Shown: positions 1 to 22,720 of the stretch, in pieces
How positions within the stretch are numbered: the first letter of the stretch is position 1
Layout of the letters: each line of letters opens with the position of its first letter
Assembly (NCBI GenBank): GCA_023269675.1
Contig: JAHFSX010000003.1
Coordinates: 62,001-126,000, forward strand
Direction of reading: 5' to 3'
DNA: 64,000 bases
Origin: Verrucomicrobiota bacterium
GTDB lineage: Bacteria > Verrucomicrobiota > Kiritimatiellia > RFP12 > UBA1067
Position numbers and translations under genes: made by a program
Notes under the pieces: generated by a model
The model's input: the letters and a program-made list of their open reading frames with translations, nothing else
Database searches by the model: none
Told to the model about the DNA's origin: nothing

Positions 1-748
1 CCTCCAGGTCAACCGTGTCGTCCGGCGTGCGGTCGCGCTCCGGACGCGAGGGCGAGCCGAGCGGACAGAACCCGACGGGCTGGATGCCGTTGTCCACAAC
101 GTACTTGAAAAGCTCGGGCTGCTGGAGGTGCGGGTGCAGCTCCATCTCGTTCACCGCCGGCAGGACCTCGCAGTCGCGCAGCACCAGCCGCATCTTGGCG
201 GCGCTCATGTTGGAGGTGCCGATGGCCCTGACCAGCCCCAGGCGGACCAGCTCTTCCATCTGGGCCCAGACCCGCATGTAGTCCTCGTGGATATAGGGCT
301 TGGCGTTCGGGTTGTGGTAGTCCCCGGAGCAGCCCTTGGGATGGAAATTCGGGAAGGGCCAGTGCACCAGATACAGGTCGAGATACTCCAGCCGGAGGTC
401 TTTGAGGGACTGCCGGCACGAGCGGATGACGTCTCCGTCGCCGTGGCTGTCGTTCCAGACTTTGGAGGTGACCCACAGCTCCTCGCGCGGGATCCCGCCG
501 CGCCTGACGAGCTCCAGGGCCTCGCCAATCAGCGCCTCGTTGCCGTAGACCGACGCGCAGTCGAAGTGGCGGTAGCCGAGCGTGGCCGCCTCGATCACCG
601 CCGCCGCCACCTGCTCGCCGCTGTATTTGTCCGAGCCGAAGGTGCCCATGCCCACCGCCGGCATCTGCGCGCCCGTGTTGAGTTTCCGCTTGGGTACGCG
701 CCCGGGCTCGATCCCGTCGGCCGCCAACGTCAGTTTGATGTCTTTCAT
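1..748 (-). CDS. Aldo/keto reductase, 3' end cut by window edge
   Basis: NAD(P)H-dependent oxidoreductase of the aldo/keto reductase superfamily (TIM barrel), probably cytoplasmic. I translated it by hand, because the track shows only shadow frames here. It starts MKDIKLTLAADGIEPGR and continues with family blocks: MPAVGMGTFGSDKYSG near residue 30, GYRHFDCASVYGNE near 60 (catalytic Asp and Tyr of the family), a SKVW segment carrying the expected Lys, and YLDLYLVHWPF carrying the expected His. The start is the ATG at 748 with GGAGGG six bases upstream. Upstream lies a promoter/operator matching that of fucI, so the enzyme probably belongs to fucose use, for example reduction of lactaldehyde or another sugar-derived aldehyde. 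The substrate is inference. About 249 residues are visible. Confidence 0.9.
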   Translation of the reverse strand, partial: MKDIKLTLAADGIEPGRVPKRKLNTGAQMPAVGMGTFGSDKYSGEQVAAAVIEAATLGYRHFDCASVYGNEALIGEALELVRRGGIPREELWVTSKVWNDSHGDGDVIRSCRQSLKDLRLEYLDLYLVHWPFPNFHPKGCSGDYHNPNAKPYIHEDYMRVWAQMEELVRLGLVRAIGTSNMSAAKMRLVLRDCEVLPAVNEMELHPHLQQPELFKYVVDNGIQPVGFCPLGSPSRPERDRTPDDTVDLE

Positions 749-809: not shown

Positions 810-874
810 ATCATACGCCGAGTCGCGTAAAAAGGGAATGGACGATTTTGACCGCCTGATGGACATTCTTGACC
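810..874 (-). promoter_or_regulatory. Promoter and two 21-bp-spaced operator half-sites of the aldo/keto reductase
   Basis: Read on the minus strand: GGTCAAGAAT, then GGTCAA exactly 21 bp further on, then TTCCCT as -35, a 17-bp spacer and TATGAT as -10. The fucI promoter has the same elements at the same distances, 65 bp in both. Direct repeats 21 bp apart just upstream of a weak -35 are typical of AraC-family activator sites. The regulator is not in the window. Confidence 0.72.
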
Positions 875-944
875 CTCGCGGGCGCGACTCCCGGCTCACG
901 GCCTCTCCGGATGTGCCCGGCGCCGGCTCATGGAGTGAACGGGG

Positions 945-991
945 GGCGGACATTCCTGTCCGCCGGGCGACGGCGGGTTGGAAAACCCGCC
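945..991. repeat. Pair of short hairpins with TTCC and GGAA loops
   Basis: Two perfect 8-bp stems in tandem, GGCGGACA/TGTCCGCC and GGCGGGTT/AACCCGCC, with 4-base loops TTCC and GGAA. They have the same style as other hairpins in the window: a stem of variable sequence around a fixed small loop. Confidence 0.75.
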
Positions 992-1052
992 CTCCGTTAT
1001 GAATGCCCGCAGCGCTGAAGGGTATCCCTGACCGTCGTGCCTGTAGCTTCAA

Positions 1053-1139
1053 GCGATTAAGATTAAGAGCACGATTAGGATTATGAGGAACGGAGGACCT
1101 TTCGTAATCCTGATCCTGATCGTAATCTTGATCGTTCGA
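1053..1139. repeat. Degenerate-word inverted repeat (gattaagatta type)
   Basis: The left arm is made of gattaag/gattagg words and the right arm of taatcctgatc/taatcttgatc words, which are roughly reverse complementary. About 12 bases separate the arms. It could fold into a long imperfect hairpin. Several loci in the window have the same design with different words. Confidence 0.6.
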
Positions 1140-1212
1140 GAAAGTTGCCCCTCCGTGCATGCCCGCCCCGCGGGCGGCGGGCTGACACCTAAGCCGCTAA
1201 ACCCCTATCCCG

Positions 1213-4200
1213 CTACTTCGCGGCGAGCTGGGCGGGGCCGTCCTCGATCACCACGCGGAAGCCGACGTCGAAGGGCCGCATCCAGCCGGGGTAGCCCCAG
1301 CGCCAGGAGGACGTCGCGCGGATCTGGCGGCGGTACCACGAGCCGCCGCGCACGACCTTGCGCTCGTCGACGGTGGCGTTGTTGCGGCCGTCGCCCTCGG
1401 CGTACGGGTAGGGCTTGTAGGCCGAGCGCGTCCACTCCGCGACGTTGCCGTGCATGTCGTGGAGGCCCCACGCGTTGGGCGCGTAGCGGCCGACGTCGGC
1501 GAGGTGCAGCACGCCGTCGTTAAAGCGGCGGTCGCGCAGCTCGTAGTCGTAGAGCTTCGACGGCAACTTGGCCGGCTTGGGATCGTCGCCCCGCGCGATC
1601 GGCTTGGGATCCACGCCCTCGACCGCCAGCTCGATGAGCATATAGTCCGCCAGATTCTCCGACTTAGAGAAGTCCGCGTCGAAGTCGCCGTAGTTCATCG
1701 GCGTGGCGCTGCCCGCGCGGCAGGCCCACTCCCACTGCGCCTCGGAGGGCAGCCGCACGTTCTTGTTGAGCTTCCGGGAGAGCCACGCGCAGTAGGCGTT
1801 GGCCTGCGCCCACGTCACGCGGATCGCCGGGAAGTTCGACGCGTTCACGAAGTAGCCGCGGTTGACCTGATCCTTGTAGTGCTTGTCGTACACGCCGTTC
1901 TCGAAGGAGGGGTCGAACTGCTGGAACTGCGCCATGGTGACCTCGGTGGCGCCCATCCAGAAGGGCTGGCCGACCGTCGCCGCGCACATCGGCTGCTCGG
2001 CGGGCGTCTCGTCGTTGCTGCCCATCACGAACGACCCGGCCGGAATCTTGACCAGCTTGAGCTTCTGGCCGCCGCCGAGCTCGAGCTCGGTGACCGCGCC
2101 GCCGCCCTGCTTGGCTTTGGCCGCGGCCGCGTCGAAAGGCCAGCCGCTGACACTGGGCGCAGGCGCCGGGGCGGCCGGTGGCGGCGGAGCCTTGAAGGCG
2201 CCCGGGGCGTACGGGTCAACCACGACTTCGGGATCGAAATCGTCGTTGGCGTATTTGATGGCCATCTCGCGCCGGCGGACCAGCACCTCTTTCTTGTCGC
2301 CGCCCATGCGCTCGGTCCAGCTGCCCCAATACGGCACGTTGAGGTCGATCCAGGTGATGAGGCGGTCCCACTGTTCGGGGCTCAGCGCCACGCCCTTGTG
2401 CCCCTTCTTGAGCAGCTGGACCAGCTCGGAGGTTTCGGCGTGGAACTCCAGCGGCGTCAGCAGATGATAGTCGCCCTCGGGCCCGTTGCGGCGCACGTAG
2501 GGGTGGAGGCTCACGTAGGCGGTGGAGAAGCCGCCGTCGCCGGGCGTGTTCTCGAAGTTCGGGAGCGGCTGGCCGAGCTTGTTCTTGGCCGTGGCCTTGC
2601 CGTTGTGGCAGCCGACGCACGACTGGTCGAGCACGGGCTGCACCTCGCGCTGGAAGGCGAAGTTGCGGCGCGGGCCGTACCACGGCCGGATGGCCTGCGC
2701 TTTCTTCGTGACCGCGGTCGTCGCGTGGCTGGCCGGCGAGTTGTTCTGCTGCTCGTGGCAGCCCTGGCACGAGACCCTCTCGCCCGGCATGCCCACGAAC
2801 CAGGAGCGCATCATCTGCATGGCGTTGCCGTCCGCGTCCAGCGGCTGCATCGCGAGCGGAACGTTGGCCGGCGCCGTGAACATGCAGGAGCCGTCCGCCT
2901 CCACGGCGACCGTGCCGAGCATCACGCGCGGATCCCACGGGCCCTCGAAGCCGATGGTGTAATGGCCGCCGATATTCCGCGGCGAGTACTCGTACTGGAA
3001 GACGCGGAAGGCTTTGGTCTTGCCGTTTGGCACGCCGCGCAGCCCTTCGCCCAGCTGGGCGCCGACCAGGTAGACCGTGCACTCTTTCGAGCCTTTGACG
3101 TAGCGGTCGGCGGGCAGCACCGGCTTGGGCTGTCTCTTGAGCGGCAGGGGCTCGTAGAGGTTGTCGGAGGCCGACTGCCAGAGCGGGATCAGGTTGTCGT
3201 AGATGTCCGCCAGCACGACCATGAAGAGCCCGTTGTCACCTTGCATGGAGACGAGGAAGAGGTCGTCGTTCAGCGGGAACGGGTGGAGGAAGAGCGGGTT
3301 CGAGCCGTTCACCAGCGTGTCGCGCGTGATGTTCTCGACCGGCTTGCCGTAGCCGGGGATGCGCTGCACCGCGCCGGAGGTCTCCTGCCGCCCGCGCGAG
3401 GCGTCGAACAGCACCAGCTCGCCCTTGCGCGCGACGCCGTGGTGGCCGCTGACGATGCCCACGAACTTGGTCGCCGAGCCCGGCAGCGGCCGGGCGTAGA
3501 AGAGGCTGTTCGGCCAGTAGGAGTTGCTGCCGTAGAACGCCTTCTGGTCCGTGCCGTCCGGGTTCATGCTCATCAGCACGCGCGAGAAGTAGTGGGCCGA
3601 GTCGGCGTACTCCCAGCGCAGGTACAGGATGCGGCCGTTGACCAGGGCCGTCGGGCACCAGCTGTTGTCCTGGTCGAACACGAGCCGGCGGATCGTGCCG
3701 TCGGGATCCATCGAATGCAGGTTGCCGACGTAGTCGCTGCCGCCCACGCACGGCACGCCCTGGTAGCCGCTCGTCGCGACAAAGAGGCGGCGGCCGTCCG
3801 GCAGGTAGCAGGGGTCGTAGTAGTCGACATCGGGCTGGTCGGCCGGCGTGATCTCCCGGTAGCTGCCCGGCTTGCTCAGCCGCGTCTCGAACACGCGCCA
3901 GCCCTTCTCGTCCGGCTTGCCGCAGGAGTACATGATCCGCTCGGCGTCGTAGTCGAGGTCCACGTCGCCGATGAAGCTGCCGCTTTCGTAGACCACGAGC
4001 GGCTCTTTGCCGCCCTGCTTGAGCGGGGCGCGCACCACGTCGTTGACGTAGCCGTGCAGCGGCACCGAGGAGTTGCCCTGCCAGTTGGCGGGCAGGCCGG
4101 TGTGGGCCGAGCCCGAGGAGCGCCGCACGAAGAGCAGCTCTTTGAAATCGACGGCCGGATGCTTGAGGTAGACCGCGTCGGTGAGCTCCGCGATCTGCCG

Positions 4201-5259
4201 CGCCGCCGCTAGCTTGGCCGCGAAATCGCTGCCGGACGCCGCCGCCGCCACCGGCCGCAGGTCGGCCACGCGTTTGAGCAGCGCGTCCTTGTCCTTGTAG
4301 ACTTCGGGATACTTGGCGGCATAGGCGTTGACGGCGCGCTCGAGCGCGTCGGCGTTGAAAAGCTTGAGCGCGGTCAGCTTCAAGGCCTGCGCGCGGCCCT
4401 CGCGGAAGGCCTGGCGGAGCGGGGCGAGGCCGGCCACGCTCTGGACATCGCCCGCCTGCTTGCCGAACGCCTTGCGCTGAGGATCGGGCATGTTGCCGAC
4501 ATAGCGCTTGGCCAGCTCGGTCAGCGTGCCGGACTGCTTGCTGTTGTAGATGCTGGCGCCCGCGAACTCCTCGATGATCTCCTGCTTGGCCGCGGGGAAA
4601 TCCCGCATCAGCCCCGGCGTCAAGGGCTGCAGGTTGCGGAAGGCTTCCAGCTTGCCCTGCGTGGCCAGGACCGACTCGATCCACGTCGCCCGTTTCTCGT
4701 ACGCGGCCAGAATCTCGCCCTCCGAGGCGGGCTCGATCTTGCGGGGGATGATCCGGCCGACGGCGGCGCTCGTCTGCGCGGCGTCCACCTTCAAGGGGTT
4801 GGAGGTGGGCGTGGGCTTGGTGAGCGTCTGTTCCCATTTCACCTTGCGGTCCGCGCCGATGATCATGACCGAGGCGTCGAAGAGCCGCTTGGCCTCCTCG
4901 ACGCGGTTCCAGACCACCAGCTGCTCGATCGGCACTTCGCGGCCGAGGTCGACCTCCCACCATGGGTTCGGCTCGTTTTCCGGCGTGTGGGTGATGGAGT
5001 TGCCGCCCCACGAAGTGTTGGTGTTGCCGTCGATCGCGCGGCTGGCGACGCCGCCGTTGGCGTCCTTGCACTGCTGGGCCTTGCCCTTCAGCGCGACATT
5101 CACGCCCCGGGAGAAGACCTGCACCTCGGCCAGCGACAGGGTCGCCTTGTCCTTGGGGATCTCGACGCGCACGAACCGTCCCGCGACCGGCGTCTGCGCG
5201 GCCGCGCCCCACGCCGCCAGAACCGCGGCACACCCCAACACCTGACGACTGATGCCCAT
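1213..5259 (-). CDS. Secreted discoidin / HzsA-like propeller / di-heme / SUMF1-like fusion protein
   Basis: A 1348-aa exported multidomain protein. The signal peptide is MGISRQVLGCAAVLAAWGAAA. A discoidin (F5/8 type C)-like region follows (about 25-150) with WGGNSITHTPENEPNPWWEVDLG. Next is a helical region and a beta-propeller resembling the middle domain of hydrazine synthase alpha (about 360-800). Two c-type heme sites follow: CQGCH near 830 and CVGCH near 880. After an Ala/Pro linker comes a SUMF1/PvdO-like domain (about 1080-1340) with IPAGSFVMGS, NVAEW and VVRGGSW. Where true formylglycine-generating enzymes carry catalytic cysteines after RGGS, this protein reads SWYRRQIRATSSWRW, with none, so it is unlikely to activate sulfatases. 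The start at 5259 follows a GAGGGGG-type RBS and gives a clean signal peptide; the 1820-aa track ORF merely reads on through fucI out of frame. The role is probably periplasmic redox or binding; it is unproven. Confidence 0.85.
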   Translation of the reverse strand: MGISRQVLGCAAVLAAWGAAAQTPVAGRFVRVEIPKDKATLSLAEVQVFSRGVNVALKGKAQQCKDANGGVASRAIDGNTNTSWGGNSITHTPENEPNPWWEVDLGREVPIEQLVVWNRVEEAKRLFDASVMIIGADRKVKWEQTLTKPTPTSNPLKVDAAQTSAAVGRIIPRKIEPASEGEILAAYEKRATWIESVLATQGKLEAFRNLQPLTPGLMRDFPAAKQEIIEEFAGASIYNSKQSGTLTELAKRYVGNMPDPQRKAFGKQAGDVQSVAGLAPLRQAFREGRAQALKLTALKLFNADALERAVNAYAAKYPEVYKDKDALLKRVADLRPVAAAASGSDFAAKLAAARQIAELTDAVYLKHPAVDFKELLFVRRSSGSAHTGLPANWQGNSSVPLHGYVNDVVRAPLKQGGKEPLVVYESGSFIGDVDLDYDAERIMYSCGKPDEKGWRVFETRLSKPGSYREITPADQPDVDYYDPCYLPDGRRLFVATSGYQGVPCVGGSDYVGNLHSMDPDGTIRRLVFDQDNSWCPTALVNGRILYLRWEYADSAHYFSRVLMSMNPDGTDQKAFYGSNSYWPNSLFYARPLPGSATKFVGIVSGHHGVARKGELVLFDASRGRQETSGAVQRIPGYGKPVENITRDTLVNGSNPLFLHPFPLNDDLFLVSMQGDNGLFMVVLADIYDNLIPLWQSASDNLYEPLPLKRQPKPVLPADRYVKGSKECTVYLVGAQLGEGLRGVPNGKTKAFRVFQYEYSPRNIGGHYTIGFEGPWDPRVMLGTVAVEADGSCMFTAPANVPLAMQPLDADGNAMQMMRSWFVGMPGERVSCQGCHEQQNNSPASHATTAVTKKAQAIRPWYGPRRNFAFQREVQPVLDQSCVGCHNGKATAKNKLGQPLPNFENTPGDGGFSTAYVSLHPYVRRNGPEGDYHLLTPLEFHAETSELVQLLKKGHKGVALSPEQWDRLITWIDLNVPYWGSWTERMGGDKKEVLVRRREMAIKYANDDFDPEVVVDPYAPGAFKAPPPPAAPAPAPSVSGWPFDAAAAKAKQGGGAVTELELGGGQKLKLVKIPAGSFVMGSNDETPAEQPMCAATVGQPFWMGATEVTMAQFQQFDPSFENGVYDKHYKDQVNRGYFVNASNFPAIRVTWAQANAYCAWLSRKLNKNVRLPSEAQWEWACRAGSATPMNYGDFDADFSKSENLADYMLIELAVEGVDPKPIARGDDPKPAKLPSKLYDYELRDRRFNDGVLHLADVGRYAPNAWGLHDMHGNVAEWTRSAYKPYPYAEGDGRNNATVDERKVVRGGSWYRRQIRATSSWRWGYPGWMRPFDVGFRVVIEDGPAQLAAK

Positions 5260-5531
5260 ACCCCATCCCCCTCTTAATCGATTCTTAATAGATAAAGCCC
5301 TGAAAATTTCATGAGGACGCGCGTGTGACACCCGCACGAAAAGGACTCGCGCATCATGCGGGCCTGGACCGGTGCCGGCTGAAGCCGGTACAACATACCT
5401 TGCCGCATCCGTACGTTGTACCGGCTTCAGCCGGCCCGGTGCACCGCCGGCCATGCGCGGCTCGACAGAATCTCGCCCTCCATCGCCGCGCTTGGCATGG
5501 AGGGCGAGCGTCCTCGCGATCCGCTCAAGAA
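5260..5531. other. Spacer between fucI and the heme/SUMF1-like gene
   Basis: No gene. It contains an inverted pair of the GTTGTACCGGCTTCAGCCGG family (5371-5436). An AT-rich stretch just upstream of the 5259 start could hold a promoter, but I see no convincing -35/-10 pair. Confidence 0.6.
5371..5436. repeat. Inverted pair of GTTGTACCGGCTTCAGCCGG palindromic repeats
   Basis: The unit at 5371-5394 is the reverse complement of the unit at 5415-5435 over about 20 bases. Each unit contains its own hairpin (CCGGCT/AGCCGG). Further copies lie at 7535-7560 and, diverged, at 54229-54254. Confidence 0.8.
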
Positions 5532-7319
5532 TCACCCGTAGACCGGGCCGAAGTTCTTGCAGGCGCGGTAGTCCGCGCCGACCGGGTCGTCCGCGCCGAA
5601 CAGGCCCCACACGTGCGGGCGGAAAACCTGCTCCTCGGGCACGTTGGACATCGCCACCGGGATGCGCAGCATCGCCGCCAGAGTGATCATGTCCGCGCCG
5701 ATGTGGCCGTAGCTGATCGCCCCGTGGTTCGCGCTCCAGTTGTTCATCACGCTGTAGACGTCGCGGAAGGCGCCCTTGCCGGTCAGGCGCGGCACAAACC
5801 ACGTGCACGGCCAGGTCGGGTTCGTGCGGTCCATCAGCTTCTGGTTCACGTCCTTCGGCAGCTCGGTGGACCACCCTTCGGCGATCTGCAGCACCGGCCC
5901 CAGGCCCTTGACCAGGCTGATGCGCGTCATGGTCATGGGCATGCCGCCCTCGGAGAGGAAGCTGGAGGAGTAGCCGCCGCCGCGGAAGTACTCGACGTCC
6001 GCCGGCGCCCACTGGGTCGCCTTGAGGCAGGCCTCGGCCTCTTTCGTCGTGATATCCCAGAAGGGCTTCATCGCGGGCTTGCCCTTCTCGCGCTGCTTGC
6101 CGCTGGCGTCCATGCAGGCCGCGCCGGAGTTGAGCAGGTGGATGAAGCCCTGGGCGTTGATGCCGGTCAGCTTCTTGCCGGTCACGCGCTTCACCGCCTC
6201 GGGGCTCCAGTAGGTGCGCACGTCCGCGAAGATCTGCGCGCGGTTGGTGAGCAGGTACATCAGCAGCATGCAGACGCCGTTGAGCGAGTCGTTCTCGGTC
6301 GCCACCATGTAGGGCGCGCGGATGCCGTTCCAGTCGAAGGAGCTGCTGAGCACCGACTCCAGGAAGTCGCCGTTGGGCTTGTAGTCGGTCCACTGGCGCT
6401 GGCCCTGGAAGCCCGAGCAGATCGCGTTTCTGCCGAGCGCCTCCTCGCCGTACCCCAGCTTGTCCAGCGCGGGGTTGCCGACCATCAGGTCGCGCATGAT
6501 CAGCGCCATCTTGACGACATACTCCCAGTCGGCGTCCTTGGCGGCGCGGGACTTCTGCAGCGCCTTCTTGTTCAGGTCCTTGCCTTCCTTGCAGAAGGCC
6601 TTGGCCCACGCCAGCGCCTTCACGTACTCGGCCTGGTCGTAGATGCCCTCGCCGATGCGGCGGTCCACCTCGCACATGTCGACGTTCTCGGTGCGCATGC
6701 CCAGGTAGTCCTGGAAGAAGTCGGGGCTCACGAACGAGCCCGCGATTCCCATCGAGGAGGTGCCGACCGAGAGGTAGGATTTGCCGCGCAGCATCGCCAC
6801 CGCGAGGCCGCCCTTGACGAAGCGCAGGAGCTTCTCCTCCACGTCGGCGGGGATCGAGGTGTCAGAGCGGTCCTGCACCTCCTGCCCGTAAATGCCGTAG
6901 GCCGGGAAGCCCTTCTGCGCGAAGCCCGCCAGCAGGGCGGCCAGGTAGACCGCGCCCGGACGCTCGGTGCCGTTGAAGCCCCACACCGCTTTGGGCAGAT
7001 GGGGGCTGACGTCCATGGTCTCCGTGCCGTAGCACCAGCACGGCGTGACCGTGAGCGACACGCCGACGTTCTCGCGCTCGAACTTGGCCGCGCAGGCCGC
7101 CGCCTCGGCGCAGCCGCCGATGTTGGTGTCGGCGATCGCGCACTGCACCGGCGAGCCGTCCGGATACTTCAAATTCTCGGAGATCAGCTTGGCCGCGTTC
7201 CTGGCCATGTTCATGGTCTGCTCTTCCAGCGATTCGCGCACGCCGCGCCGCCGGCCGTCGATCACCGGACGGATGCCGACCTTGGGAAATCCTTTTCCGC
7301 TCCAAATCGTCTTGCTCAT
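5532..7319 (-). CDS. fucI: L-fucose isomerase
   Basis: Converts L-fucose to L-fuculose (and D-arabinose to D-ribulose), the first step of fucose breakdown; Mn-dependent and cytoplasmic. It has 595 aa against 591 in E. coli. The N-terminus [20 protein letters not shown], the segment [14 protein letters not shown] and the C-terminal block [17 protein letters not shown], which holds the metal/catalytic His, match the family along its length. The ATG at 7319 follows AAGGAGG. A promoter with an operator lies 25-89 bp upstream and matches the one before the aldo/keto reductase. Fuculokinase, aldolase and a regulator are not in the window. With secreted hydrolases nearby this fits a bacterium feeding on fucose-containing glycans (inference). 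Confidence 0.97.
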
Positions 7320-7343
7320 TAGAATCCTCCTTGATTGCGTGGA

Positions 7344-7408
7344 AGTATACGCCTCCCGCTTTTATTTTGGAATAGCAAGAATTGACCTGCGCCTGTCAAT
7401 TCTTGACC
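7344..7408 (-). promoter_or_regulatory. fucI promoter and operator (two GGTCAA half-sites 21 bp apart)
   Basis: On the minus strand: GGTCAAGAAT, a second GGTCAA 21 bp later, TTCCAA as -35, a 17-bp spacer and TATACT as -10. The proximal half-site starts 10 bp before the -35 edge. The region also holds a perfect inverted repeat with 10-bp arms, AAGAATTGAC/GTCAATTCTT (7377-7404), so a dimeric repressor binding the palindrome is an alternative to an AraC-type activator. Confidence 0.75.
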
Positions 7409-13831: not shown

Positions 13832-16800
13832 TCAGCGCAAGAGAAGGACGGTGCCGCGGGCCGAGATGAAGTTCAGGACCACCTCGTGGTCGGCCGCCGT
13901 GATGCTGGCGACGAAGCCGGTGCGGCCCGCGTTGGCGAAGGTCCAGTTGGCGAAGTTGGCCGCCCCCTCGATCGTGTCGTAGCGCATCAGCACCGTGCGG
14001 AACGGGCCGGTGACCGGGTCGCCCGCCACGCGTCCGAAGTCCAGCACGCCCGCGCCGTCGACCTTCAGGCGGCCGACCTGCAGCTCGTCGCTGAGCGTAG
14101 GCGACCAGGTCCAGGCGTAGACCGTGTTGGTGCCGAAGGTCACGGCATCCGCCATCAGCGAGGCTCCGGCCGGCGCGTTGGTGCTGTCGCCCGGCGACAC
14201 GCGGCCGCGCACGGTGAGCGCGCCGGACACGTAGCCCTCGCCGGAGAAGTCGCGCACCTCGGCCGCACCGCCCTGCAGCGCGATCACGGCGTTCTCGGCC
14301 ACGCGCAGGCTCGGCAGCGCCGGCGCGCCGGCGATCAGCGCCTGCACCTCAGCCTGCGACAGCGCCCGGCTGTAGACCTGAATGTCGTCCAGCCGGCCCT
14401 GGAACATACCGGCCGTTTCGGACAGCGAATAGGCACCGAAAGCGAAACCCGGCTGTCCCGCCGAACGCGCCGGCGAGAAGCGGAAGGTGTTGCCCGGATC
14501 GGCCGGCGTGCAGACCTGCACGCCGTTCTGATAGATCGTCACGCCCTGACGGCTGACCGCCACCGCCACGTGGACCCAGTTACTGAGCGGAAGATCGACC
14601 GTGGAGTCGCGCGAAACCCACGAGCCTGTCGCGCCGACGCCCATGTAGCGGATCCGCTTGTTGCCGGTGCCCGAAATACGGATCATGTTCTCGTACGGAC
14701 CGTTCGCGTCGCTGTTCAGGCGCGTCGTGAAGAAGGTCTGCACCTTAAAATCGGTCGCATAGGCATCCAGCCAGATCCATGTGGCGAACGTAAAGTTGGT
14801 CACGTCGCCCATGGCCGCGTCATACGGCACGCGTGCCGTTGTGTTCCCCGCCAGCCACAGCGCCGAGAGGCCGTTGGTGCCCGGGCCCAGGGTCAGGGCG
14901 CTGCCGGCCAGCGAGCCGTAGCGGCCGTTTCCTGAGGAGTCGTGGAGCGGACCGTTCTCGAAGCTGTAACGCGCGAGCAGGTTGCTCGGGAAGCTCTGGC
15001 GGGCGGGCGCCGCCAACGCCGCGCTCAGCGTTCCGCCCCGCACGTCCACCGTGCCGTCCCAGCGCAGCGGCTGCGTCAGGGTCAGCTGACCCGCTCCGGC
15101 TTTGGCCAGACTGCCGCCCGGCACGTCGGAACCCACGGGCAGCGCCAGCGTGACATCGTTGCCGGCGGTCTCGAACGTGCCGCCCGCCGGGCTCACGTAG
15201 AGCTGCCGCAGGCCGTACAGATAATCGTTGGAGATCACGCCCTGCATGCCCGCACCGGACATGACCAGCGTGCCGTTGTCCAGCGCGAGCTTGGTCCAGC
15301 CGACCGCATACGCGTTGGTCGTGGGCGGCAGGCGCAGCGTGGCCCCGGCCGGAGAACCGTTGCCGACCGCCACCGCGTTGTCGCGGCCGGCGCTGTTGTC
15401 GCCGTTCCAGTTCCAACTGCCGGTGACGTCCAGCACTCCGCCGCCGGTGACGTTCACGCGCCCGTAACTGCCGTTGTAGCTTGCCCCGCCGTTTTGATAC
15501 CCGAGGCTGACACGGCCGAGCTGCGCCTGTCCGCCCTCGACGGACAACGCGGCCGGGCCGCGCACGCCGACGTTGAACCACGTGGCCTGCGGCATGGTCA
15601 CCGAGCCGCCGGGACGCACGGTGAAGCGGTCCTCGACGCCCGGGCCCCACGTGCGCAGGCAGACCGCGTCATAGTTGCCGGTGAAATCCAGCGCGCCGTC
15701 AACCACCACCGCATTGGTGCCGTATGCCATGTAGATGCCGGAGACGACCGCACGCGCGCCCGCGTCGATCGCCAAGGTGCGGCCGCGGCTGTTGTCGTTG
15801 TCCATCTTGACGCTGTCGCGGATCACGTTGCCGAAACGGTAGCCCGAGCCGGCCGCGATGCGCGTCACGCCCTCGTACAGGCTGATCCGGTAGTTGTCGT
15901 TGGTGGCGTTGGCGCGACCGGTGAGCGTCAGCTCGCCCGCGCCTTGCTTGTACAGCGTCGCCGTGGTCTGGTATTGGAGTTCGCCGCCCAGCGCCAGGCG
16001 CGCCTGCGGATCCACAATCACCACCGCCTGGGAGGAACGCAGGGCGACAGGATTCGCCAGCACGCTCGCGGCCGAGCCGACGGCGCGCAGGAACGACCCG
16101 TCGGCATCAAACGACAGCGTTCCCGCGCCGGCCGTGGCGCCGTTGGTCAGGATGACCGTTCCGCTCGTCAGGCGCAGATCGCCCGCGAAGCTGTTGGTCG
16201 CGCCCAGAACCAGATCGCCGCCGTTCATCTTGACCAGGTCGCCCGTGCCGGAGACAGCCCCCGCCAGCGTCAGGCCCATGCCCGTAATCGGTTTGACATT
16301 CAAGCCGCCCCGCAGCGCCAACGGCGCGGTGATGCGGTGCCGGCCCTTTTCGACCTGTGCCACGGCCGGACCCGCCACGTTGGTCAGCGTCATCACGCTG
16401 GTCCCGTCGGCCGCGACCGTGTAGACGTTGGTGTTATTGAAATAGAGCAGCCCCAGCGTCGTGTCCTGATCCAGCCGGACCGCGGCGTCCGCCGCGATCG
16501 CCGAATCGAACCGCACGCCCGCCCCGGCCTCGCCCGCGCCGGGCGCAGACGCCCACTTGCCGCTGTCACTCCAGTCGCCGCCGCCCGCGGCCGACCAGAC
16601 GTGCGCGCCCGCGGCAGCTGCCGCGACCTCCAGCCAGAGCGTCTGACCCGACACGCTGAAGGTGTACTGCTTGCCGTATTGCGGGTTCGCGACGCTGAAG
16701 GCCGCGGGATCGGGGTCGGCGCCGGTGTAGCGGATCAGCGCGTAGCGGTTGTTCCCCACGATATTGTCCGTCAGGCTGCTCTGCCAGTAGAGGCGGAACG

Positions 16801-19800
16801 CGGCATGGTGCGCCGTCAGCGCGCCGTTGACCGCGAGCTGGTCGTTGGTGGCGGATCCGGAGTCCACACCGAACTCGAGCTCCGCGGGCGTGGTCTCGGC
16901 CGCGTCGCCGAGGGTCAGGCCGCTGACGGCGACCGTTTTCACGGCCGCATTGTTGAGCGCCAGCCGCGCGCCGGGCGCGACGGTGAGGGCCGTCGCGCCG
17001 GGCAACGCGCCCGAGACCTTCAGCACGCCGTTGGAAACCCCGGTCGGCCCCGTATAGGCCATGGTGCCGGCCACGTACAGGGTACCCGTACCCGACTTGA
17101 CCAGCCCGCCATCCGTGACATCCGCGCCGCTCAGGGCCTGCGACAGAAAGTAGACGCCCGCGAGGGAGGTGTCGATGACCGCAGGCAGCGCGCCGATTTT
17201 CGCGGCGTCCAGCCCGCCCAGCGTGCCGCTGACCGCGCGCGGGCGGAACACACCGCCGTTAAAGGTGACGCGCGCGAAGCCGGAGGTGTTCCCCTTGACG
17301 ATGTTGTTGGCGGTCAGCGTGCCGCCCGCCAGCTCGACTGTGCCGGTGGAACCCGCGCCGTTCGCGCCCAGCGACACCTCTTTGGCGATGTCCGCCATGC
17401 CAGCGCTCACGCGCAGCACGCCCTCGCCCAAGGTCGAGCCGAGGCGCAGCTGCTGGGAGCCGGTCTGCTGCAGCGTGCCGCCGTTGACCCACACGGTCGA
17501 AACGCCGCCCGCCGCCTCGTTCACGTAGACCGCGTTCTGCAGGAGACAGGTGCCGCCCTGGATCTCCAGCACCGGCCGGCCCGTGTAGCCCGCGAAGCCC
17601 GCCGCGCCGCCCATCGAAAGGCTGTCTGCGACAAGAAGCCCGTCCTGGACCAGCAGCCGCGAAGCGCGTCCGCCCGGCGCCGTCACCGTCGTGCCGTTGC
17701 TGCGGCCGATGCCGATCCAGCCGGTGGCGACCGTGGTGCCGCCCGCGATCACCAGCTCGCCGGCGGTCTCGGCATCCGCCCCGGCCGTCGTGTTGAGACC
17801 GACGAGCAGGCGCCCGGCAATCGTGTTGGTCTGGCCCGCCGCGCCCAGAATCACGCGGCCCTGCGCCACGTTGAACGCGCCGAAGCCCGCCGCGGGGCCG
17901 TCGCCGTCGGCGCCGGTGGAGGCGAGCCCGGCCTGGTCGGCGCTGTCGAACCGGCCGAGCTGGTTGCTGTTGGCGCCGGCAAAGGTCACCGTGCCCGCGC
18001 CGCGCTTGAAGAACGCGCCGGAGAGGGTCGAGACCGGCCCGCTCAGGGTCAGGTCGCCCTCGGCGCGAAGCACCGCCGCGTTGGTGCCGGAGGCGATCGT
18101 GACCGCCTGCGCCGTGGCTCCGGAGGTGCCGGTGAAGGCCAGGGTGCCGCGCCCCAGCGCGAGCGCGCCGGCCGGAACTTCGGTCACGCTCAGCGAGCCT
18201 CCGTCGGAGAAGGTCGTTCCCGTGTAGCCGTCGGCTGCGGTACCCAGCGTCACCGTGCCCGCGCCGGCCTTGGTCAGCCCGCCCGCGCCCGTCACGGCCG
18301 CGTCCAGCGCCAGGGTCTGCCCCAGCGCGGAGCGGAAGGTGCCGCCCGCCGCGCCCAGGGTCACGGCCGAGGCCAGAGTTCCGGAAGAGCCGACGGTCAG
18401 ATCGCCGTTGTCCAGCGTCAGGGCGGCGCCGCCCAGCGAGTCGACGCCCGGTACGGTCAGCCGGGAACCGCCGCGCACCGCGGTGGGCGTGGCGTTGGTG
18501 CCGTCCAGCGTCAAGAGGCCGCCGCCGTCCACGGTCAGGCTGCCGCCGCCGGTAACCTGGCCGGTCACGCGCAGCGAGGCCGCGGGCGCGAGGGTAGCGA
18601 CCGTGTCCCCGTCGAGCGTCAGCGGTGATGCCAGCGTATGGCTGCCCTGCGCCACAGTCAGCGGCGCGCCTGCCGCGAAGCTCACGGCCGCGCCGGCCAA
18701 GGTGTAGCGGTAGGTGTGGTCGAAGATCATCGCGGAGACCGAGACCGGAGCGTCCACATTCACGGTGGCGTCGGCGGTCAGCGCGTTGCCGAACCGCACT
18801 TGCCCGGCCGCTCCCGGCGCCTGCGGCCACCAGTTGCCGGCCACGCTCCAGTCGCCCGCGCCGCTGTTCTGCCAGACCGACTGGCCCGGGTTGTAGGCGA
18901 CCTGCACGTCGATGGTCTGATTGCCTTCATTGACCACGAACACGCCGGTGGCGCCGAAGCACTCGGGGGCCAGGGTCCAGCCGCTCACGTCGGGCGGCGT
19001 GCCCGCGTAGCTGAAGATCGGATAGGTGCCGGCGCGCGTGACAGTCTGGGCGCCGCCGCGGTTGTACAGGGCGATGACGAGCGGGCCGACGCCCGCGCCG
19101 GCCGGCAGCTGGATCCGGTCGCAGTCGCCGCTGTCCGGCGCGACCTCCAGATCCAGACGCGCGCCCGCCGCCAACGTGGCCGCGGTCAGCGTCAGGCTGT
19201 CGAACGCGCCGTTACGCAGGCTGAAGGCCGTATTCGCTGAAAGGGTCAGCCCGGTGGTCGCCACGGCCGAGGCGAAGCGCAGCGCGCCGGCCTCCACGGC
19301 CGTGGTGCCGGTGAAGGCGCAGGGGCCGGTGAGCGTCAGGGTTCCCGCGCCGCGCTTGATCAGACCGCCGGCGGTGGCGCCCACGCGTTCCAGCGCCTGG
19401 GTGATGGTGACGGTGTTGCCGAGCGTGTCGATGACCGCGCCGCCCTGGTCCACGTAGAGGGCCTTGAGCCCGTTCAGGTAGTTGTCGAGGCTCGTGGCGA
19501 AGCCGACGTTGCTGCCGAGGCCGCGCAGGGCCAGGGTGCCGCCGTTAAGGGTCAGCTCGGTGCGGTTCGTGACCGCGGACACCGAGTTGAGGGTGGCGGG
19601 CAGGCGCAGCGTGCCGCCGTTGAGGAAGGTGCGGTTCCAGCGCGACGGGTTGATGTCGCCCATCCAGTTCCAGGCGCCGGTCACGTCCAGCAGGCCGCCG
19701 TTGACCTCCACGCGCGAGTGCGCGGCGCTGGCGGAGTCGAAGGTGATGTCCGCGCGCACGCCCAACGACAGGCGGCCGACCGTGGCCGCGCCGCCGTTGA

Positions 19801-22720
19801 CGATCAGCTCGGCGTTGCCGTTGCGCACGCCGAGGTCAAGCCAGTCGTCCGCGTCGGTGACGAAGGTACCGGCATCGACGATGATGCGGTCCGTGCCGAT
19901 GGCGCCGGAAGTGGCCGACCGGATCAGGGCCACTTCGGCGCCGCTCCCTGTGAGCGTCAGGCTGCCGCCGTTCACCTGCACCGTATTGGAGGGGCTGTAG
20001 CCGGTGGTGATCCCGCCGACCACCACGACCGCGCCGGTCTCGACGATGAAGGCGCGCGGCGAAGGGCTGTCGACGTTCATGGTGAGGGTATCGCGTGCGA
20101 TGGCGTTGAGCACGATACTGCCGCCCTCGGACACGCGCATCGTGCCGGTCTGGACGTTGAGCCGGATGCTGTTGTTGCCGCTCTCATTGGCCGAGCCCTT
20201 GAAGGTCAGCTCGCCGACGCCGTATTTGTTGAGGGTGTTCTGTCCGGGCGCCCAGTCGATCGTGCCGGTCAGCACCATCGGCGCGATCGCGTCCAGCGCG
20301 CCGCCGCTCACCGTCAGCACAATGGGATTCGTGACGGTCACCGCAGCCGTGCCCGTGCTGCGGAACCGTCCGCCGGAAACCGCCAGGCTCACGGGTCCCG
20401 AGCCGACCGAAGCGCCGTCCACCAGGGCCAAAATGCCGTTCTGGAGCGTGGTGCCGCCGGCGTAGGTGTTCGCGGCGGTCAAGAGGAGGTCGCCCGAGCC
20501 CTGCTTGATCAGGCCGGCCCCACCGCCGATGGCCCCGCCCAGGGTCAGGCTGGCGTTTGCCGCCGCGTTGACCGTCAGACTGGCGGCAGGCGTGAGCGGC
20601 AGCGCCACCGTATGCGCGCCGCGGTTGACGGTGAGGGCCGGCGCGGCGGCGCCGTTGTCGAGGGTCAAGGACCCCGCGCCGCCAATCGTATAGGACTGAT
20701 CGTTGGTGAAGAAGAGCTGGCCTGCCGTAAAGGGCGTGTCGAGCGTGACCGTGGACGGCGCGGTCGCCAGCTGGGCGAACCAGAGGCGCGTGCCGGCGGC
20801 GTCGGCCGGCATGCTGCTCCAGTTGGCCGCGGTGGCCCACGCGCCGCCGGCCGGGCTGACCCAGAACGACTCGCCCGGAAGACCGGCGTAACGCACCCGC
20901 GCGAAGACGGTTTTCGCGGCGCTGTCGAGTTCGAAGGCGCAGGTGAAGCCGAAGAGCGGCGTGGCCCAGCTCAGCCCTCCCAGAGCGGGCGCCGGACCGG
21001 TATAGGTCATGATCGGAAAATCGCCCGCCCGCGCCAGCGGGTTGCGGGTGCCCTGCTGGAAGAGCGACACGTCCACTTTCTGAAGCCAGGCGCCGGCCGG
21101 CAGCGCCAGTGTATCGCAGGCCGGGCCGCCGGCGGCGACCTCCACTTCCAGCCGCGAGGCCTGCGTGGCCGAGCCGATGTGCAACTGCGTCGGCGCGAAG
21201 CGCGCGAGCGCACCATCCGCCAGCGAGAGGGTCGCGCCCGGAGCGACGAACAGATTGGTGACCGCCAGCGTGCCGGCCAGGCGCAGCGTGCCGTTCGACA
21301 CGACCGTCGGACCGGTGTAGCTGCCGGCTCCGCCGAGCGTCAGTGTGCCGCTGCCCAACTTGTAGAGCCCGCCGCCGATGCTGGCCGGATCCTGGACGAG
21401 ATTCTTCGACAGGCGGACCGAACCGCTGCCGCTGTCGACGAGCAAGCCGCGCGCCTGCACATTATAGGTGGCGCCGACGTCGCTGCCGTCGATCAGCTCG
21501 GCGTCGGCCGCGGTATTGGTCGCCTGGAGCACTCCGCCGTTGAACCAGAAGTTCTTCGTCGCGTTCGCTTTGGAGCCCACGGTGATCTTCTTGACCGCCA
21601 GCACCCCGCCGCCCAGTGTGACGTTCAGAGTCTGAACGTGGTTCGACCCCCCGTCCGTCGAGATCAGCGTCGTGCCGTTCGGCACCTCGAAGCGGCCGCC
21701 GGTGATCTCGAGCAGTCCGCTGCGCGAGGCCTCGGTAGCGGTATTGTCGTGCCGCGTGCCCATCATGAAGGCGATCGTGCCTGCATCCGTCACCGAGAGC
21801 AACCCGCCGCGCACACGGATCTCATCGGTCAGCCCCCCCGAGGAGGCCTTGTTGTTGGTGGCGAGGCGCAGGAACTTGAGCGACAGGCTGCCGCCATCGA
21901 CGAAGAGGCGCCCGCGCCGCGCGGCGGAAACGCCGATGAAACTGGAGGTGCTGTCGGCGTTGCCGCTGAGAATGGTGTGGGTGCCGTTGCTGACCACGAT
22001 CAGACCGTCACTGGCCGTCGTGGTGCGTCCCGCGAAGATGCGGCCGCTCAGCGTCAGCGCGCTGGCCGGTCCGTCCAGCAGCAACGATCCATTATAGACC
22101 TCCACATCGGACGAGCTGGTAAAGGGGCCGGTGAGCGACACGTTGCCGCCCTGAAGCGTGGTCACGGCGGTCACCCGGTTCGTGCCGGAGTAAACCGTCT
22201 GGCCCGCCGAATACGTGCTGGCCACCGAGTTGGTGGTCGTCCCTGCGAAAACAACCGTGCCCGCGCCGTTCTTCTGGAAAGTTCCGGTCGCGCCGACCAG
22301 CGTCGGACCGTTGAAGGTCAGCGTGCGCCCGGCGGCAACGTTCAGCACCTGCGTCACGCTCAAGGTCACCGGCGCGTTGAATGTCAGATCCCTTGCTGCG
22401 GAACCCATGTCGATATCGGTCGCCGCGCCGCCGTCGAGCGTGAGCCGCGCGGTGCCGTTGATCGTCACGGTCCCGCCGGGCGTGCCGACACGCAGGGCGT
22501 CCCACGTGAGCGGCCCGCCGATCTCCACCGTGTTGGCGCCCGTGACGGCCGTATCCCAGACCGCGGTGTCCGCGGCCCCGGGAACGGCGGGACCGCCCAG
22601 CCAAGAGCCCGCATCATTCAGCGGCGTCGTGTTGTCGGCTTTAAACACATCGCCGGCCATGACCGGCCCGGCGAACGCCAGAACCACTGCGGAGACCCAC
22701 CAGAGACTCGTTTTTTTCAT
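13832..22720 (-). CDS. Giant secreted protein with autotransporter-associated beta-strand repeats and a LamG domain
   Basis: A 2962-aa exported protein with signal peptide MKKTSLWWVSAVVLAFAGPVMA. Most of it is beta-helix type sequence made of PATR (autotransporter-associated beta strand) repeats, such as GSGTLTLGGAGSYTGPTVVS, GAGTLTLTGPCAFTGTTAV and GTGTLYVAGTMAYTGPTGV. Four large modules each open with a W-x(n)-W segment: near the N-terminus, then about residues 618 (WATAANW), 1280 (WSVAGNW) and 2040 (WSDSGKW). A LamG/concanavalin domain lies at about 2575-2795 (YSFENGPLHDSSGNGRYG; RLDDIQVYSRALSQAEVQ). The last 160 residues form another beta-rich repeat ending GTVLLLR. I see no C-terminal outer-membrane barrel. 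Likely a surface adhesin or carbohydrate-binding stalk; the export route is unknown. The very long ORFs on the opposite strand are codon-structure shadows. Confidence 0.9.
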   Translation of the reverse strand: MKKTSLWWVSAVVLAFAGPVMAGDVFKADNTTPLNDAGSWLGGPAVPGAADTAVWDTAVTGANTVEIGGPLTWDALRVGTPGGTVTINGTARLTLDGGAATDIDMGSAARDLTFNAPVTLSVTQVLNVAAGRTLTFNGPTLVGATGTFQKNGAGTVVFAGTTTNSVASTYSAGQTVYSGTNRVTAVTTLQGGNVSLTGPFTSSSDVEVYNGSLLLDGPASALTLSGRIFAGRTTTASDGLIVVSNGTHTILSGNADSTSSFIGVSAARRGRLFVDGGSLSLKFLRLATNNKASSGGLTDEIRVRGGLLSVTDAGTIAFMMGTRHDNTATEASRSGLLEITGGRFEVPNGTTLISTDGGSNHVQTLNVTLGGGVLAVKKITVGSKANATKNFWFNGGVLQATNTAADAELIDGSDVGATYNVQARGLLVDSGSGSVRLSKNLVQDPASIGGGLYKLGSGTLTLGGAGSYTGPTVVSNGTLRLAGTLAVTNLFVAPGATLSLADGALARFAPTQLHIGSATQASRLEVEVAAGGPACDTLALPAGAWLQKVDVSLFQQGTRNPLARAGDFPIMTYTGPAPALGGLSWATPLFGFTCAFELDSAAKTVFARVRYAGLPGESFWVSPAGGAWATAANWSSMPADAAGTRLWFAQLATAPSTVTLDTPFTAGQLFFTNDQSYTIGGAGSLTLDNGAAAPALTVNRGAHTVALPLTPAASLTVNAAANASLTLGGAIGGGAGLIKQGSGDLLLTAANTYAGGTTLQNGILALVDGASVGSGPVSLAVSGGRFRSTGTAAVTVTNPIVLTVSGGALDAIAPMVLTGTIDWAPGQNTLNKYGVGELTFKGSANESGNNSIRLNVQTGTMRVSEGGSIVLNAIARDTLTMNVDSPSPRAFIVETGAVVVVGGITTGYSPSNTVQVNGGSLTLTGSGAEVALIRSATSGAIGTDRIIVDAGTFVTDADDWLDLGVRNGNAELIVNGGAATVGRLSLGVRADITFDSASAAHSRVEVNGGLLDVTGAWNWMGDINPSRWNRTFLNGGTLRLPATLNSVSAVTNRTELTLNGGTLALRGLGSNVGFATSLDNYLNGLKALYVDQGGAVIDTLGNTVTITQALERVGATAGGLIKRGAGTLTLTGPCAFTGTTAVEAGALRFASAVATTGLTLSANTAFSLRNGAFDSLTLTAATLAAGARLDLEVAPDSGDCDRIQLPAGAGVGPLVIALYNRGGAQTVTRAGTYPIFSYAGTPPDVSGWTLAPECFGATGVFVVNEGNQTIDVQVAYNPGQSVWQNSGAGDWSVAGNWWPQAPGAAGQVRFGNALTADATVNVDAPVSVSAMIFDHTYRYTLAGAAVSFAAGAPLTVAQGSHTLASPLTLDGDTVATLAPAASLRVTGQVTGGGSLTVDGGGLLTLDGTNATPTAVRGGSRLTVPGVDSLGGAALTLDNGDLTVGSSGTLASAVTLGAAGGTFRSALGQTLALDAAVTGAGGLTKAGAGTVTLGTAADGYTGTTFSDGGSLSVTEVPAGALALGRGTLAFTGTSGATAQAVTIASGTNAAVLRAEGDLTLSGPVSTLSGAFFKRGAGTVTFAGANSNQLGRFDSADQAGLASTGADGDGPAAGFGAFNVAQGRVILGAAGQTNTIAGRLLVGLNTTAGADAETAGELVIAGGTTVATGWIGIGRSNGTTVTAPGGRASRLLVQDGLLVADSLSMGGAAGFAGYTGRPVLEIQGGTCLLQNAVYVNEAAGGVSTVWVNGGTLQQTGSQQLRLGSTLGEGVLRVSAGMADIAKEVSLGANGAGSTGTVELAGGTLTANNIVKGNTSGFARVTFNGGVFRPRAVSGTLGGLDAAKIGALPAVIDTSLAGVYFLSQALSGADVTDGGLVKSGTGTLYVAGTMAYTGPTGVSNGVLKVSGALPGATALTVAPGARLALNNAAVKTVAVSGLTLGDAAETTPAELEFGVDSGSATNDQLAVNGALTAHHAAFRLYWQSSLTDNIVGNNRYALIRYTGADPDPAAFSVANPQYGKQYTFSVSGQTLWLEVAAAAAGAHVWSAAGGGDWSDSGKWASAPGAGEAGAGVRFDSAIAADAAVRLDQDTTLGLLYFNNTNVYTVAADGTSVMTLTNVAGPAVAQVEKGRHRITAPLALRGGLNVKPITGMGLTLAGAVSGTGDLVKMNGGDLVLGATNSFAGDLRLTSGTVILTNGATAGAGTLSFDADGSFLRAVGSAASVLANPVALRSSQAVVIVDPQARLALGGELQYQTTATLYKQGAGELTLTGRANATNDNYRISLYEGVTRIAAGSGYRFGNVIRDSVKMDNDNSRGRTLAIDAGARAVVSGIYMAYGTNAVVVDGALDFTGNYDAVCLRTWGPGVEDRFTVRPGGSVTMPQATWFNVGVRGPAALSVEGGQAQLGRVSLGYQNGGASYNGSYGRVNVTGGGVLDVTGSWNWNGDNSAGRDNAVAVGNGSPAGATLRLPPTTNAYAVGWTKLALDNGTLVMSGAGMQGVISNDYLYGLRQLYVSPAGGTFETAGNDVTLALPVGSDVPGGSLAKAGAGQLTLTQPLRWDGTVDVRGGTLSAALAAPARQSFPSNLLARYSFENGPLHDSSGNGRYGSLAGSALTLGPGTNGLSALWLAGNTTARVPYDAAMGDVTNFTFATWIWLDAYATDFKVQTFFTTRLNSDANGPYENMIRISGTGNKRIRYMGVGATGSWVSRDSTVDLPLSNWVHVAVAVSRQGVTIYQNGVQVCTPADPGNTFRFSPARSAGQPGFAFGAYSLSETAGMFQGRLDDIQVYSRALSQAEVQALIAGAPALPSLRVAENAVIALQGGAAEVRDFSGEGYVSGALTVRGRVSPGDSTNAPAGASLMADAVTFGTNTVYAWTWSPTLSDELQVGRLKVDGAGVLDFGRVAGDPVTGPFRTVLMRYDTIEGAANFANWTFANAGRTGFVASITAADHEVVLNFISARGTVLLLR

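Follow-up and report, generated by a model that had tools for sequence, protein, structure and literature searches.

Paired direct half-sites before fucI and an aldo/keto reductase gene point to an AraC-type L-fucose regulon in a Verrucomicrobiota bacterium

Upstream regions of fucI and the reductase gene

The upstream regions of two minus-strand genes, fucI and an aldo/keto reductase gene, look alike, and we asked whether this likeness reflects common control, which proteins would read the sites and which sugar they would sense. Both genes lie in the window, the whole 64,000-nucleotide stretch of a Verrucomicrobiota genome (G000) analysed here. The reductase heads a same-strand run that continues with a zinc alcohol dehydrogenase, a GH29 alpha-L-fucosidase, GH28-like and GH130-like enzymes and others; given this content, co-regulation of the run with fucI is sensible. 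The genes and promoter elements, in window positions, are:

1..748, minus strand: aldo/keto reductase, 344 aa, running beyond the window, first gene of the run
810..815, minus strand: reductase promoter, -10 box TATGAT, from the alignment of 11 promoters, 21 bp after the downstream half-site
837..853, minus strand: reductase promoter, downstream half-site GGTCAAAATCGTCCATT, 21 bp after the first half-site
858..874, minus strand: reductase promoter, upstream half-site GGTCAAGAATGTCCATC, read directly, kept before orthologues
5532..7319, minus strand: fucI, L-fucose isomerase, 595 aa (NCBIfam equivalogs PRK10991 and TIGR01089 above cut-off)
7344..7349, minus strand: fucI promoter, -10 box TATACT, 21 bp past the downstream half-site, kept in sister species G001
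7371..7387, minus strand: fucI promoter, downstream half-site GGTCAATTCTTGCTATT, 21 bp after the first half-site
7392..7408, minus strand: fucI promoter, upstream half-site GGTCAAGAATTGACAGG, read directly, identical in G001

The reductase (window 1-748) resembles aldose reductases, the adjoining Zn-dehydrogenase (L031:16493-17569) resembles sorbitol/xylitol/threonine dehydrogenases, and the two are conserved as a pair in five relatives. Together they could convert L-fucose to L-fuculose by reduction and re-oxidation, bypassing fucI, or could handle lactaldehyde.

The original prediction was of a 65-bp promoter/operator shared by the two genes. Direct reading of the minus strand located all of its motifs at the positions given for them: GGTCAAGAAT (at 874 and at 7408), then another GGTCAA at a distance of 21 bp, ATTCC and GGCGTAT. 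A spacing of ten bases between the second GGTCAA and ATTCC needs correction, as ATTCC starts 8 bases after it, the distance also written into the scan pattern that came with the prediction. The two regions do align over 65 bp without a gap, but the match is not strong as a whole, with only 35/65 positions identical. When random pairs of 300-bp stretches of the window were compared, the best ungapped 65-bp match reached at least 35 identities in 142 of 487 trials, and Markov simulations of both upstream regions did so in 13 of 500. The core is another matter. Within the window GGTCAAGAAT is present at those two places only, and a shared 10-mer combined with a shared 6-mer at +21 arose in none of the simulated pairs (0/400), so the core is not chance. 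Identity of 35/65 is by itself frequent between random stretches, yet these simulations, the conservation of the site between species and held-out matches at fucosidase genes (both below) leave a negligible probability that the two promoters are alike by chance.

A genome-wide scan with GGTCAA-N15-GGTCAA returned 12 exact matches in the 6.3-Mb genome; it is not specific, and we dropped it as a signature. The specific unit is the 17-bp half-site and not the bare GGTCAA pattern. A lone copy of GGTCAAAATCGTCCAT on contig C15 was set aside, as it appears to lie within coding sequence.

The predicted operator, about AGTCAATAATATCCATC-N4-GGNCAATTCTGTCCATT, is a direct repeat of two 17-bp half-sites whose starts are 21 bp apart; the -10 box lies 21 bp past the downstream half-site, and no good -35 is present. 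The site at the reductase promoter gave a profile match of 34.7 bits, and a consensus sigma-70 -35/-10 pair was looked for at this promoter and not found. Across 11 aligned promoters we found direct half-sites of ~17 bp, 21 bp apart, overlapping or adjoining a poor -35, and the distance to the -10 box was nearly fixed at 21 bp (20-22 bp where the -10 is clear). Comparison supports the proposed AraC-type geometry, and AraC-family genes lie beside orthologous sites in relatives. The poor -35, the abutting half-site and the near-fixed -10 distance fit class-II activation of the AraC kind.

Sites recovered by held-out searches and in relatives

Profile R1 was built from six reductase/dehydrogenase sites, without fucI, and run over six whole genomes. 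Genome-wide scans used patterns and profiles, with a heuristic first pass in which no more than 150 candidates per genome were scored, and the member counts are to be read as "at least". R1 recovered at least two strong new sites in G001, upstream of GH95 and GH29 alpha-L-fucosidases; this local profile missed the fucI site. We also trained a fixed-spacing matrix on reductase, dehydrogenase and fucosidase sites, leaving the fucI sites out. In the window its two top scores are 40.5 bits for the reductase site, which belonged to the training set, and 23.8 bits for the fucI site, which did not; the next-best score is 9.1. In 100 Mb of simulated sequence no score was 20 bits or more, and chance would give about 0.06 sites above 18 bits per genome. 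Weak profile matches in G004, G015 and contig C147 of G016 (E >0.03) look like chance and were rejected. A separate observation in G004 is a repeat array at L181:2147-3178 (contig C96), made of GGATCACCCCCGCGTATGCGGGGACCAC-like units, resembling type I-E CRISPR and lying beside a GH29-like gene.

In five relatives (G001, G016, G031, G037 and G042) a tandem site separates an AraC-family gene from the reductase or from the dehydrogenase paired with it, and in all five the upstream reductase half-site is kept before the orthologous genes. The reductase promoters of G001 and G016 carry the tandem site with the AraC-family gene on its other side, G031 has the same layout with the reductase beside the regulator, and in G037 and G042 the tandem matrix finds the site between the AraC-family gene and the reductase or dehydrogenase. 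Regulator and operator are linked in these five relatives; in the window's genome the regulator sits on another contig.

The AraC subfamily is present in 6 of 162 genomes of the order. The reductase is present in every one of these searched for it (5/5), and in the remaining genome, G031, it adjoins the regulator. When 80 reductase loci from many phyla were inspected, 7 had the AraC subfamily adjacent and 5 of those 7 a tandem site before the reductase; the five site-bearing loci are those of G001 and G016 and three from other Verrucomicrobiota. The other two, L206 and L252, have no tandem site there, a point against the regulon reading. A match at L214 (Bacillota) was excluded, being away from the reductase. 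FucU-family and GH29 genes recur in Verrucomicrobiota clusters with the AraC subfamily. The fucI operator and its -10 box are identical in the sister species G001, within diverged flanks. The site was not seen at fucI promoters from the family's other genera, and most family genomes with fucI have neither regulator nor motif, which counts against the regulon reading.

A predicted fucose regulon and its candidate regulators

Core fucose genes are among the targets (fucI, GH29 and GH95, with FucU-family genes in the clusters of relatives), and the GH29 and GH95 fucosidases behind sites support a fucose regulon with members outside the window. We consider it probable, at roughly 0.8, that the two promoters depend on an activator and form part of an L-fucose regulon whose sites are read by AraC-family proteins. 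In this model, a dimer carrying L-fucose or a fucose metabolite would occupy both direct 17-bp half-sites. With its downstream half-site abutting the poor -35, the dimer would recruit RNA polymerase to the -10 box 21 bp on, as AraC does at araI1-I2; binding, activation and the fucose ligand are what we infer from sequence comparison.

The ligand might instead be another sugar, such as L-arabinose, with the fucose genes forming part of a broader response to plant or algal glycans. The region downstream of the AraC-family gene in G016 (L128:5652-11327, contig C326) holds an SSS-family transporter, a ribulokinase, an AraD-like gene and a 494-aa isomerase-like gene, and arabinose is conceivable because the ribulokinase and AraD-like genes adjoin the regulator. 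The GH28-like and GH130-like genes of the G000 reductase operon point the same way, as does the regulator's best named model, AraC itself, matched below cut-off. Since the remaining linked genes (fucI, GH29, GH95 and FucU-family) all indicate fucose, we regard another ligand as unlikely.

Candidate regulators and further fucI-type sites in the window's genome are:

G000:C24:38705-39574: AraC-family regulator orthologue, 78% identical to that of G001, unlinked from the reductase
G000:C82:14561-15412: AraC paralogue, with a counterpart on C318 in G001
L147:705-5774 (G000:C65): secreted protein, 1689 aa, with a fucI-type site in front; the C65 site was in the training set
L180:5716-9144 (G000:C85): large secreted PATR repeat protein, with a fucI-type site at 275250 found by search

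The regulator has AraC_binding and HTH_18 domains (PF12833 and PF02311 above cut-off in P0002), and both models are also above cut-off in the paralogue and in the Verrucomicrobiota homologues. A GH29 gene and a sulfatase gene adjoin the C24 regulator. Upstream of it we found one good half-site, AGTCAATTATATCCATC, and no good second one. A likely history is the splitting or copying of a divergent promoter in the ancestor, after which the complete operator stayed with the reductase and one half of it with the regulator. Short runs of AATCCT/ATTAAG-like repeats precede both the reductase (about 1050-1100 of the window) and the GH29 gene that neighbours the regulator (about 9970-10070 of L122); these may be intergenic repeats that spread and took part in the rearrangement.

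The reductase site would most likely be read by the C24 protein, although its gene is no longer linked to the reductase, and the fucI site by either the C24 protein or the C82 paralogue. Other AraC-family members are possible readers too, since the window's genome has 26 AraC-type HTH matches. The two genes may share one type of operator: the first boxes are identical, but the second read TCCAT at the reductase and GACAG / GCTAT at fucI, and the cross-matrix score of 23.8 bits at fucI stands beside its absence from the R1 matches. The different second box and the R1 result count against the regulon reading. A fucI-type profile revealed at least two further sites in the window's genome, both before large secreted proteins (listed above), and among nine genomes searched such sites occurred only in G000 and G001. 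No fucI-type site was found upstream of another ORF in the window, a single 2962-aa frame of beta-strand-repeat type (13832-22720, minus strand) that includes a concanavalin-like stretch close to its end.

The fucI site may answer to the paralogous AraC protein, with C24 reading TCCAT-type sites and the C82 paralogue reading fucI-type ones (GACAG / GCYAT). The C82-type paralogue is confined to the window's genome and its sister G001 (2 of 162 genomes), matching the restricted distribution of the fucI-type sites. Its first recognition helix resembles that of the regulator (AYICRLFRRF versus PYLCRLFKRY), whereas its second differs (DAFNFSRTFRH versus DPYHFSRLFKK). The fucI-type sites in front of two large secreted proteins, one of them the PATR repeat protein, also favour a division between two regulators. 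Set against this, the reductase-type matrix scores fucI-type sites far above background, and G042, with one such AraC gene beside its site, has the fucI-like second box TGCTAT. We hold a pair of regulators to be a real possibility, though short of even odds; under it, co-regulation of fucI and the reductase would require the two proteins to respond to a common signal. A rather doubtful extension is that an AraC-family fucose activator was duplicated in this genus, keeping the first box while its second HTH diverged. The new copy would have taken over fucI and giant secreted repeat proteins and the old one retained fucosidases and the reductase, the old regulator leaving its ancestral divergent promoter with one half-site remaining.

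The fucI operator can also be read as a palindrome, CAAGAATTGAC-N8-GTCAATTCTTG, for a symmetric dimer of GntR, LacI or FNR type, its likeness to the reductase site being incidental. Its 11-bp inverted repeat is perfect and identical in G001. Neither of the other two fucI-type sites has kept the inverted repeat, whereas both retain the direct one (GTCAAGAATTG... twice and GTCAAGAAATG... twice), so the inverted repeat at fucI is probably the incidental feature; since a direct half-site matrix moreover recovers all three fucI-type sites, we think a symmetric dimer improbable.

Control of both promoters by AraC-family proteins, the reading that we prefer, would provide, for uncultured bacteria that degrade polysaccharides, a predicted fucose regulator together with its DNA code and a list of targets. 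That regulator, site and fucosidases go together across Verrucomicrobiota indicates a fucose context for an otherwise vague reductase/dehydrogenase pair, and the two site types would be a natural example of a regulator being duplicated and rewired.

Comparison with known systems

The published fucose regulators that we compared, from Bacteroides and E. coli, belong to families other than AraC; E. coli FucR is a DeoR-family protein. It activates fucose genes through tandem-placed upstream sites, together with Crp, and its core motif is CGG...CA (PMC11011485). Tandem upstream sites are common to that system and the one described here, whereas family and motif differ. Bacteroides FucR (BT1272) is of the GntR family and controls a single fucose operon that includes fucI (PMC3878776); control of fucI is shared, but here the family is AraC and the targets are scattered. 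Pseudomonas MtlR at PmtlE is an AraC/XylS activator responding to mannitol, whose site spans 37 bp or more and contains two similar 15-bp blocks upstream of the -35 (PMC4514859). It has in common with our system an AraC/XylS sugar activator and paired blocks, and differs in ligand and motif. Our literature search found no AraC-type fucose regulator in Verrucomicrobiota, though one may still be published.

The predicted system would work like E. coli AraC, whose half-sites are TAGC-N7-TCCATA (PMC4514859), and its regulator is placed in the AraC family by domain content. AraC_binding and a double HTH, two 17-bp direct half-sites 21 bp apart by the -35, a TCCAT second box in the matching position of the unit and, in relatives, a regulator gene divergent from its target are all shared. 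In contrast, the first box is GTCAA here and TAGC in E. coli, similarity falls below the AraC family cut-off, the targets are fucose genes in place of araBAD, and the regulator gene of G000 lies apart from its target. Most likely, then, this is a previously undescribed version of a familiar kind of sugar-responsive control.
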